From Nitrososphaerota archaeon (GTDB lineage Archaea; Thermoproteota; Nitrososphaeria; Nitrososphaerales; Gagatemarchaeaceae), in contig JAPCJK010000003.1 in assembly GCA_027886975.1 (NCBI GenBank), positions 1 to 49,000 on the forward strand: a stretch of DNA of 49,000 nucleotides. The letters are read 5' to 3'. The notes below the pieces were generated by a model that was not told the origin of the DNA, searched no databases, and saw nothing but the letters and a program-made list of their open reading frames with translations. This document shows, piece by piece, positions 11,162 to 19,681 of the stretch (its first letter is position 1; the number at the start of each line of letters is the position of its first letter). The position numbers and the translations under genes are program-made.

Positions 11162-11269
11162 ATGGCTTCCTGCATCTGCAAGGTTTGCCGGCACAAAGAC
11201 TACGAAAGCTGCGGGAAGTGCACCTGCTGCACCTATCGCAGGGCCGCGTGTATGCAGATTCTGGTCTAA
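11162..11269 (+). CDS. 35-residue cysteine-rich miniprotein
   Basis: A short ORF 12 bases after the HD gene, encoding eight cysteines in 35 residues at positions 4, 6, 9, 17, 20, 22, 23 and 30, in CxC, CxxC and CxCC arrangements. That is enough to bind one or two zinc ions or an iron-sulfur centre. It has an ATG start and sits in the same orientation, so it may belong to the same transcript. I recognise no family. Too short for most gene finders. Confidence 0.55.
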   Translation: MASCICKVCRHKDYESCGKCTCCTYRRAACMQILV

Positions 11270-11339
11270 TAGAAAACCTACCTCCGCTGTTGGGAACTCA
11301 GAGTATGGGGCGTTAATAGATTCTGACTGATGAAACAAC

Positions 11340-11843
11340 GTGCTCGAGCTGATGAGCGAAGATTGGCAATGGGGATGGCTTGCTGGTCTCGTTGACGGGG
11401 AGGGTTTCATTCACGTGCACTACAGGAAGAGTCGTGACTCCACCCATCCACGAATGAGGATATACTCGACCACGAAGGCCATCATCGACGAAGCTTGCAG
11501 AATAATGGATGTAAAACCATACGTACGCAGAGATCACGGCGTTCTGAAGGGTTGGTATGCACAAGCGACCGATTTGAAGGCAGTAGCAATCCTTCGGCGG
11601 ATAGGCCCATTCCTGACCGAGCCTTCGAAGAGATGCAGAGCTTTGACGATTCTGGAAGTCTTCAGCAACACCGGAAGTATTCCTGGCAGGCATCCGTCAG
11701 CCGAAGTCTTCAAACAATGCCCACCCCCGACGAGACTTAGGATTCCCAAGATAGTTATAAGACCAGCCTCCGAAGGTCTTCAAAGCGAGGTGGGGAAGCC
11801 AGACCCCTTGTGGGGGGTAAGGATCATCCCGGCGGGCTCATAA
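11340..11843 (+). CDS. LAGLIDADG homing-endonuclease-like protein, overlapping the tRNA gene
   Basis: The 167-residue frame has one LAGLIDADG motif near residue 14 (LAGLVDGEGFI), followed by beta-strand-like segments (HPRMRIYSTTKAIIDEACRI), so it would act as a homodimer if active. GTG start, with a GTTAATAG TATA-like box about 24 bases upstream; ATG 11352 is the alternative. The last 60 bases run into the initiator tRNA gene and the stop codon is formed by anticodon-loop bases; a frame change near 11720 would end the protein earlier. The tail from about residue 125 has no domain character. It may have mobilised one of the tRNA introns, but it lies outside them. Confidence 0.65.
   Translation: MLELMSEDWQWGWLAGLVDGEGFIHVHYRKSRDSTHPRMRIYSTTKAIIDEACRIMDVKPYVRRDHGVLKGWYAQATDLKAVAILRRIGPFLTEPSKRCRALTILEVFSNTGSIPGRHPSAEVFKQCPPPTRLRIPKIVIRPASEGLQSEVGKPDPLWGVRIIPAGS
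11753..11762 (+). promoter_or_regulatory. TATA box of the initiator tRNA gene
   Basis: AGTTATAAGA is centred 27 bases upstream of the first tRNA base, the standard archaeal spacing. It lies inside the reading frame of the upstream LAGLIDADG ORF. Confidence 0.7.
11803..11821 (+). other. tRNA intron 1 (D-loop, 19 bases)
   Basis: Intron hairpin CCCC-TTGT-GGGG next to a three-base bulge AG|A; on the other side the bulge is AG|G. The central helix pairs exon GCC with intron GGT with one further mismatch. Excision restores an ordinary archaeal initiator D-arm (GGGA...TCCC). Confidence 0.8.
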
Positions 11844-11857
11844 GCGAAAGCTTAGAC
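11843..11857 (+). other. tRNA intron 2 (canonical 37/38, 15 bases)
   Basis: Bulges TA|A and AC|A flank a central helix between CTCA and TTAG (one mismatch); the intron has a GAAA loop. Removal restores the seven-base loop CTCATAA closed by GGG/CCC pairs. The first intron base also completes the stop codon of the overlapping ORF. Confidence 0.85.
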
Positions 11858-11872
11858 ACCCGCAGAGCGGAG

Positions 11873-11895
11873 ATCGGGCCCAAACCCGACCGTGC
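11873..11895 (+). other. tRNA intron 3 (T-stem 52/53, 23 bases)
   Basis: Bulges AG|A and GC|G flank a four-pair helix (GCGG with CCGT, one G-U), then the intron stem TCGGG/CCCGA. The predicted cuts agree exactly with the only joint that builds the T-stem GGAGG needed to pair with CCTCC. Non-canonical position. Confidence 0.85.
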
Positions 11896-12073
11896 GTTCA
11901 AATCCTCCCCTCGCTATCCTTGTCTTAGTGAAATTCGTCTAGATTGCAAAGGCGGAAGCAGGATTCGCTGGGGGCAGAAGTTTTGTTCTGCAGTCAAAGC
12001 ACAAGACAATAATTCGGTTCGTATTACTGACGAACTCGTAGACCACCTGGCGCGGATTGACTCTTTTCTTGTA

Positions 12074-17626: not shown

Positions 17627-18316
17627 GTGAATCAGTACACCTCATGGCGCCAGGTTGCCGGCTACTTTGATGGAGACGGCACGATTGCAACTTCCGACAT
17701 TTCTAACCAGCCCTACAAACTCAGTCTGTCGCTCATATTTACTGACCAGTCTCTCGACCAGATTTCCAACATCAGAGACTTCCTCTATAAGAATGGAATC
17801 AGAACTAGCAACATACTGAAGACCTCCAAGGGAACAGCGAACATTGTAGTGGTTAGCGAATTCCATTCTGTGAAAAAGGCGCTTGGACGGATGCTGCCTT
17901 TCCCGTGCAAGAAGGCAAATGAGGCAAGGTCCGCTCTTGCCTATTACGACGGCAAGATTACCGGAAACAGGTTAATTGCGATTTTCCAAGAAGAGGTCGA
18001 AGCAGAACGACGCGAGAGGCGGCCACGTAAGGTTCCGATCAACGTTTCATACACCAGGATTGAGGGCGACAGGATAATGAAGCAGGCGCGAAAAGACAAG
18101 CTACGAGATGCCTTTGGAAGATTCAGAGCCAAGGTGACCCCGGAGGACTACGAGAATATTCGCAGAAAGCATTTCGATCAAGGCAAGCGCTTGCGCGATT
18201 TGGTCAAGGAATATCCCCAATACGCAAGAGAAACCATTCGAAGAGTCCTGGGCGGAGGCCGAGGCTACGTCGGCGTGAAGGGCCTCGGTCGCGTGGAGAC
18301 AACCGACAGTAGATAA
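17627..18316 (+). CDS. Free-standing LAGLIDADG homing-endonuclease-like protein with C-terminal helix-turn-helix
   Basis: 229 residues. The motif VAGYFDGDGTI is near residue 10 and a second, weaker repeat lies near LAYYDGKITGNRL (about 100). The C-terminal third (EGDRIMKQARKDKLRDAFGR onward) is basic and helical, with LRDLVKEYPQYARETIRRVL resembling a DNA-binding helix-turn-helix. GTG start 28 bases after GGTTATATTC. AT-richer than its neighbours, consistent with a mobile gene. It lies between two intact genes, not inside a gene I can see. Confidence 0.75.
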   Translation: MNQYTSWRQVAGYFDGDGTIATSDISNQPYKLSLSLIFTDQSLDQISNIRDFLYKNGIRTSNILKTSKGTANIVVVSEFHSVKKALGRMLPFPCKKANEARSALAYYDGKITGNRLIAIFQEEVEAERRERRPRKVPINVSYTRIEGDRIMKQARKDKLRDAFGRFRAKVTPEDYENIRRKHFDQGKRLRDLVKEYPQYARETIRRVLGGGRGYVGVKGLGRVETTDSR

Positions 18317-19385: not shown

Positions 19386-19681
19386 CGACGCGAGCCAGTG
19401 GACGGGCCACGGGGATCTCCTGGGGAAGTTCCTCCCTCGCAGCAGGACGCACGGCGTCAAGAGACGCGGCCCGAGAGGGTCGGCTCCAGAACAGAAACGA
19501 GACCCGGCCCATCAAGGGCGATGATAGGGCGACCTTGAGGTCGGTGGGGACCGGGATGAAACGGCTGACCCGTGCGGAGCAAGGCCAAACGTGGTCGATG
19601 AAACGCCTGCAGGAGACCAGGGTAGGCCGCTGAGCTGAATCCCGTCTAGAACAGAAGGAGGACTACGGCTGGGACGCGTCG
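19386..19681 (+). ncRNA. rnpB: RNase P RNA (archaeal type A-like)
   Basis: Catalytic RNA that trims tRNA 5' ends. Ends are joined by P1: CGACGCG (19386-19392) with CGCGTCG (19675-19681). The P4 core is clear: AGT-T-CCTCC (19427-19435) pairs with GGAGGACT (19657-19664) leaving the universally conserved bulged U at 19430, and ACAGAA precedes the 3' strand. Internal blocks AGAACAGAAACGAG, GGATGAAACGG, GGAGCAAGGCCAAAC and GATGAAACG match archaeal RNase P RNA. A TATA-like box lies 26 bases upstream. No long ORF crosses it convincingly. Confidence 0.92.

Follow-up and report, generated by a model that had tools for sequence, protein, structure and literature searches.

Intron-split initiator tRNA gene of a Nitrososphaerales archaeon and a recurrent neighbouring site for free-standing LAGLIDADG genes: predicted splicing and homing

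Anatomy of the initiator tRNA gene

The window, by which the whole analysed stretch of 49,000 nucleotides at the start of contig JAPCJK010000003.1 is meant, carries on its forward strand an initiator tRNA gene in four exons. An ORF with a LAGLIDADG-like motif lies directly upstream, overlaps the tRNA gene and contains its putative promoter region; this ORF was absent from the sequence-only reading of the same DNA. The features are the following, with the positions of introns A and C given in our own tRNA numbering.

11313-11319, + strand: TTAATAG, a possible displaced original tRNA promoter, 27 nt before the GTG of the ORF
11340-11843, + strand: LAGLIDADG-like ORF, GTG start, running into the tRNA with its stop at the anticodon
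11379-11405, + strand: LAGLVDGEG motif of the ORF, residues 14-22
11756-11762, + strand: TATAAGA, a TATA-like box within the 3' end of the ORF, 28 nt upstream of the tRNA
11784-11916, + strand: initiator tRNA gene (precursor), from the tRNA parse, an intron-aware finder and the loci of relatives
11784-11802, + strand: exon 1, with the 5' strands of acceptor and D-stem and part of the D-loop
11803-11821, + strand: intron A, 19 nt, D-loop, between G18 and G19
11822-11842, + strand: exon 2, anticodon CAT at 11839-11841
11843-11857, + strand: intron B, 15 nt, canonical position 37/38
11858-11872, + strand: exon 3, with the 3' strand of the anticodon stem, the variable loop and the start of the T-stem
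11873-11895, + strand: intron C, 23 nt, T-stem 52/53
11896-11916, + strand: exon 4, T-loop, 3' strands of the T-stem and acceptor, and discriminator base

Archaeal initiator tRNAs are marked by a CAU anticodon, an A1:U72 pair and G:C pairs in the anticodon stem next to its loop. The window tRNA has the CAU anticodon, A1:U72 and three G:C pairs below the anticodon loop, and after splicing its acceptor reads AGCGAGG/CCTCGCT and its anticodon arm GCGGG-CTCATAA-CCCGC, which bears out the initiator identity first proposed from the sequence. The arms close only when 19, 15 and 23 nt are taken out, and a canonical tRNA is thereby restored. An intron-aware finder, which scores tRNA arms after removing up to three bulge-helix-bulge introns, returned a CAU tRNA with exactly these cuts and a score of 35. 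This score was reached by none of 2000 dinucleotide shuffles and by none of 644 other 300-nt segments of the window, with a single chance match at a score of 30 in each set. False matches of the finder occurred at scores of 29-31; those at 29-30 were treated as noise unless ARAGORN concurred (L124), and one match with a score of 31 (L128) was discarded after inspection of its sequence. An earlier finder limited to two introns mis-parsed the window gene, gave no hit in any other locus and was dropped. The unspliced strand of the gene folds more stably than its own shuffles (z -3.8).

A standard tRNA gene search reported no tRNA in the window, and Rfam at the gathering threshold returned RNase P RNA only. 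The initiator locus was likewise missing from the 33 RF00005 matches of its own genome. Such misses are expected because the gene is so disrupted, and they are a warning that the tRNA searches used here overlook an essential initiator gene in a genome of this kind. The archaeal RNase P RNA itself lies at 19390-19677 with 187 bits.

Introns and splice sites among relatives

The gene was used as a query against 60 relatives and its own genome, and a match was obtained in 46 of the 61. Thirty initiator loci were fetched and 27, the own locus included, were parsed; some of these genomes are near-identical pairs, and the loci are not all independent. The three unparsed loci were L067, which lies at a contig end, and L076 and L078, which depart from the template and are both interrupted by eye. 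By eye, L078 (G038) seems to have one more insert close to position 7/8, which would make a fifth site, and to lack the D-loop intron.

The mature initiator tRNA is nearly invariant, with one sequence in 14 loci, a second in 7 that departs from the first at D-loop bases, and single variants in the remaining 6. The introns occupy four sites: A in the D-loop, B at 37/38, C in the T-stem at 52/53 and D in the T-loop at 59/60 (our numbering). The sets ABD, AC, AB and ABCD occurred in 9, 5, 4 and 3 loci, respectively, while ABC, to which the window belongs, ACD, BC and C occurred in 2, 2, 1 and 1. Empty sites, with the exons joined at the same place, were found for A in 2, for B in 8 and for C in 13 of the 27 loci. 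These empty sites are the decisive evidence for the three introns, and together with the finder score they confirm to the base the positions claimed in the sequence-only reading. The same reading had called three introns unusual, which did not hold among the relatives: at least three are present in 16 of the 27 parsed loci. Four introns, the fourth in the T-loop, are carried by G027 (L055), G011 (L059) and G036 (L073, from another genus). Within this one order, the intron number of the initiator tRNA ranges from one to four.

The splice points of introns A, B and C can all be placed behind the second base of a three-base bulge, as had been proposed. Intron C forms a strict bulge-helix-bulge with 4 of 4 central pairs and 5 inner pairs. 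Introns A and B are relaxed, each with 3 of 4 central pairs (A as read from the sequence), and the inner helix of B has 2 bp. A bulge-helix-bulge scan was rejected as sole proof, as matching of this structure alone is weak evidence: these 173 nt yield a very large number of relaxed candidates. Across the parsed loci, a central helix of at least 3 of 4 pairs was found in 22/25 A, 19/19 B, 14/14 C and 14/14 D introns, and all 4 pairs in 13/14 C and 14/14 D introns. The inner helix of intron C shows paired changes among relatives; that of intron B is weak, with 1-2 bp in 14 of 19 loci.

Two tRNA-splicing-endonuclease genes (PF01974, 102.1 and 83.7 bits) were identified in the own genome, on contigs C69 and C116, as expected for the two-subunit enzyme type described as accepting non-canonical sites (PMC4090602). 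The gene is presumably expressed, and its precursor would most likely be cut by a splicing endonuclease built from two different gene products, with the pieces ligated into a normal 76-nt initiator tRNA. The splicing endonuclease of this host is probably active and of the alpha2beta2 type. The sequence-only reading had also suggested that splicing could limit growth, a possibility on which the analysis gave evidence neither way.

The LAGLIDADG-like ORF and the tRNA promoter

The part of the window ORF that is conserved in orthologs ends near 11747. Its LAGLVDGEG motif, which includes an acidic residue, is invariant in three aligned sequences except at position 18 (V/I). The solved homing endonuclease I-CvuI was matched by the three-sequence profile with E=0.0075; no Pfam family was assigned to the window ORF, and PF14528 reached E=0.53. 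Identity to the ORF of G027 by codon position 1, 2 and 3 was 68, 73 and 32%, respectively, which points to selection on the protein. DNA cleavage and homing would be the predicted activities of this ORF.

Among relatives, the LAGLIDADG gene at the initiator tRNA appears from comparison as an open, a broken, a scar-only or an absent copy. In G027 and G005 the same tRNA is immediately preceded by an ORF 51-55% identical to that of the window. The G005 frame is open and may be 5'-truncated, since its first ATG, GTG or TTG falls inside the motif. G026 carries a broken copy before the same tRNA. C-terminal scars of the same orientation adjoin the tRNA upstream in G003, G020, G025 and G035 (E values from 2e-17 to 2e-7). 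Weak ones were seen in G002 (E 9e-4) and G011 (E 2e-4), close to the unrelated noise of this search, which reached 0.001-0.002 at other places. Altogether, 10 of the 27 parsed loci have a copy or scar before the initiator tRNA, two of them weak. The 5' flank is just 97-98 bp in G001, G008, G015 and G023. A contig scan with the upstream-ORF family gave two named records, Nitrososphaerales archaeon A_CRE_07 and Thaumarchaeota archaeon NC_groundwater_1049, in agreement with the Nitrososphaeria-like host suggested in the sequence-only reading.

No correlation between introns and the endonuclease gene was found at the initiator gene among the 27 parsed loci. Intron A is present in 25 of them with or without an ORF or scar, the distribution of B, C and D is mixed, and 17 loci have introns with no ORF or scar detected. 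A displaced 5' fragment of the initiator tRNA was looked for before the window ORF and not found.

The TATA-like box was taken as the best-scoring 7-mer at -20 to -44, a heuristic without a control, and in 25 of the 27 loci this heuristic places it at -28 to -33. The spacing from TTAATAG to the GTG start is the same in G027. The free-standing LAGLIDADG gene would lie downstream of an older promoter and upstream of the tRNA, with the TATA-like box in its own 3' end, and in several species the promoter region of the tRNA appears to derive from the endonuclease gene. A promoter within the end of the endonuclease gene would explain why scars are retained.

Two further ORFs of the window were recorded. 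A small cysteine-rich ORF (11163-11270) lies between an HD-domain gene and the tRNA, and a similar stretch is found there in several relatives. A second LAGLIDADG-like ORF with weak Pfam matches (17627-18316) lies between TiaS-like and Ribo_biogen_C genes.

LAGLIDADG ORFs beside other tRNA genes

The own genome gave 19 LAGLIDADG_3 matches at E<=1. Thirteen free-standing ORFs were kept, L092 having been added, and six of those kept have weak Pfam scores (L041, L042, L046, L047, L048, L049). Left out were L033 and L040, which share one 540-aa frame, L038 (89 aa), and L039, L043, L044 and L045, whose frames exceed 420 aa. By eye, the matches L033 and L040 (contig C71) are intein-like within a ferredoxin-domain gene. 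Among relatives, 18 genomes were searched, and 28 loci with frames of 140-420 aa were taken from the matches listed.

Six of the 13 own ORFs overlap a tRNA gene or lie within 150 bp of one: those on C62 (Lys(CUU)), C103, C119, C80 and C68 (Leu(UAA)), and that of the window. The same applied to 6 of the 28 ORFs of relatives among the matches listed (L124, L126, L132, L134, L135, L144). Among the matches listed, a tRNA thus adjoined 12 of 41 free-standing ORFs vs 0 of 26 presumed-intein loci (Fisher P=0.002), presumed inteins being an imperfect control because they are situated inside long genes. This control consisted of 30 loci among the matches listed minus four that were free-standing (L099, L105, L110, L111), with the same detection. 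With the window excluded, 11 of 40 ORFs among the matches listed compare with a background that we assumed to be 3-5% (binomial 2e-8 to 3e-6), a figure that overstates independence because some loci are related. The other 29 of the 41 ORFs lie away from any tRNA. Of the distant homologs of the window ORF, that of G051 is ~50 bp from a tRNA-Lys with a seemingly interrupted T-arm, while no tRNA was found in the loci of six others (L085-L088, L092, L093).

Neighbours other than tRNA genes were also seen. One free-standing LAGLIDADG ORF (L032, own contig C74) lies ~240 bp from the SRP RNA gene, and a LAGLIDADG ORF of G033 (L145) overlaps a 5S rRNA match of 36.5 bits, slightly below the gathering score.

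The tRNA-Lys(CUU) unit

The clearest layout was found in the own genome:

L031 (own contig C62), 997-1861: tRNA-Lys(CUU), then a LAGLIDADG ORF, then an intronless copy of the tRNA 3' end

This tRNA-Lys(CUU) has three introns, that in the T-stem at 52/53 among them. The ORF is on the same strand as the tRNA and matches PF14528 (LAGLIDADG_3) with 50.7 bits, and beyond it the 3' end of the tRNA recurs as a perfect, intronless copy of 27 nt. G023 (L126/L162) has the same order, with an ORF 48% identical and a fragment of 25 nt at 92%. The C62 layout can be read as the insertion of a unit made up of an endonuclease gene and a substitute tRNA end, the intron lying at most a few bases from the break. 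No integrase gene, which an insertion of the SSV/pNOB8 type would contain, was identified within the C62 repeats, and the LAGLIDADG_3 ORF fills the unit. Relatives in which no ORF of this kind was detected have the T-stem intron of tRNA-Lys as well.

Upstream of tRNA-Lys, G027, G005, G035 and G001 carry an ORF of another, unrelated family. The D-arm intron of this tRNA was present in 3 of 4 loci with the upstream ORF vs 3 of 21 without it (P=0.03, counted by hand). The table covers 25 of 30 loci, and G033, which has two copies and the intron in one, was entered as intron-bearing. G001 is the case with the upstream ORF beside a tRNA-Lys lacking the D-arm intron. By eye, L144/L172 (G027) holds an intact tRNA-Lys followed by an apparent 3' fragment of another tRNA-Lys, and this fragment seems to retain the anticodon-loop and T-stem introns.

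Discussion

The locus is very probably what its anatomy suggests, an intron-split initiator tRNA gene beside a recurrent site of free-standing LAGLIDADG genes, with splicing and homing predicted. That the window gene is a dead copy, with a normal initiator tRNA in an unassembled part of the genome, is hardly credible. The assembly is in 151 contigs and, being 94.8% complete, does not make the lack of a second initiator gene a proof. A check of the own genome for such a gene, advised in the sequence-only reading, was made with a 14-nt core from the D-stem to the anticodon at <=1 mismatch, and the window was the single match. Moreover, the mature sequence is near-constant in the 27 loci while the introns vary, unlike in a dead gene.

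Several readings exist of how the introns arose and why they stay. There is about an even chance that they are old and mostly vertical, with ordinary gain and loss, and that the LAGLIDADG gene is unrelated and selfish, using the stable flank of a tRNA gene. This fits the initiator introns, which do not track the ORF, the 17 of 27 loci with introns and neither ORF nor scar detected, and the majority of free-standing ORFs, 29 of 41 among the matches listed, at a distance from tRNAs. It fits less well with the enrichment of free-standing ORFs at tRNA genes, and with the tRNA-Lys layout of two genomes, in which the ORF separates the intron-bearing gene from a displaced 3' end that lacks the intron. 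It is a tentative idea, judged less likely than not, that LAGLIDADG homing units aimed at tRNA genes create and maintain many of the tRNA introns in this Nitrososphaeria group. Such a unit would consist of an endonuclease gene and a substitute end of the tRNA gene, to which a promoter is added where the 5' end is replaced. A bulge-helix-bulge intron would seal it to the resident part of the tRNA and destroy the cleavage site. After the insertion the tRNA gene would still work, though interrupted, and an intronless piece of it would be left displaced. If this happened again and again from either side, even the single initiator tRNA could come to hold three or four introns. On the main reading, an intron in a tRNA gene could persist as protection, because it would break the cleavage site, or it could be copied along with the endonuclease gene. 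That integrases or other recombinases made the tRNA-gene insertions, as proposed for Caldiarchaeum tRNA-Thr, with the LAGLIDADG ORFs as passengers, is improbable: an ORF flanked by direct repeats of a tRNA end does resemble an integrase unit (PMC3293823), but the ORF between the C62 repeats is LAGLIDADG_3 and no integrase was identified there.

The origin of archaeal tRNA introns is a long-standing question, and an endonuclease-like neighbour makes it testable. The tRNA genes joined to homing-endonuclease-like genes are defined pairs of enzyme and DNA, on which it can be asked whether the introns are homing footprints or protection. SegB, a free-standing homing endonuclease of another family than LAGLIDADG, lies beside tRNA genes in T4-like phages. 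The position of a homing gene by tRNA genes is shared with the present loci, whereas SegB is phage-borne and the tRNA genes here carry introns. Homing endonucleases with archaeal tRNA introns were not described in the titles and abstract openings among the literature matches listed.

Archaeal tRNA genes with several introns, two or three each, are documented (PMC8450103, PMC3218864, PMC11291895), and some Asgard genomes are reported to have multiple introns in over half of their tRNA genes (PMC11291895). As in the tRNAs described for Thermoproteales, Caldiarchaeum and some Asgard archaea, the introns here are short, of the bulge-helix-bulge type and at canonical and other positions; the difference is that here the initiator tRNA has three and that of three relatives four. 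A 2021 paper gives 'up to three' introns per tRNA (PMC8450103), and four in one tRNA were not described in the titles and abstract openings among the matches listed, so that the four-intron genes would exceed the published maximum found. The Caldiarchaeum tRNA-Thr(GGU) locus joins a tRNA fragment, an adjacent ORF and an intron-bearing tRNA in one unit, and its 813-bp ORF was placed among recombination proteins by SVMProt, an integrase being assumed for the insertion (PMC3293823). The C62 tRNA-Lys unit resembles it, with a LAGLIDADG ORF in place of an ORF that is compared here by its published description. Disrupted initiator tRNA genes are known from Thermofilum pendens (permuted) and Nanoarchaeum equitans (split), with reported junctions at 59/60 and 37/38, respectively (PMC3218864), which coincide with intron sites D and B here. 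Their genes are disrupted like those of the present loci, whereas here the pieces stand in order and are joined in cis. Multi-intron tRNA genes are a known kind, to which the four-intron relatives and the association with endonuclease genes add.
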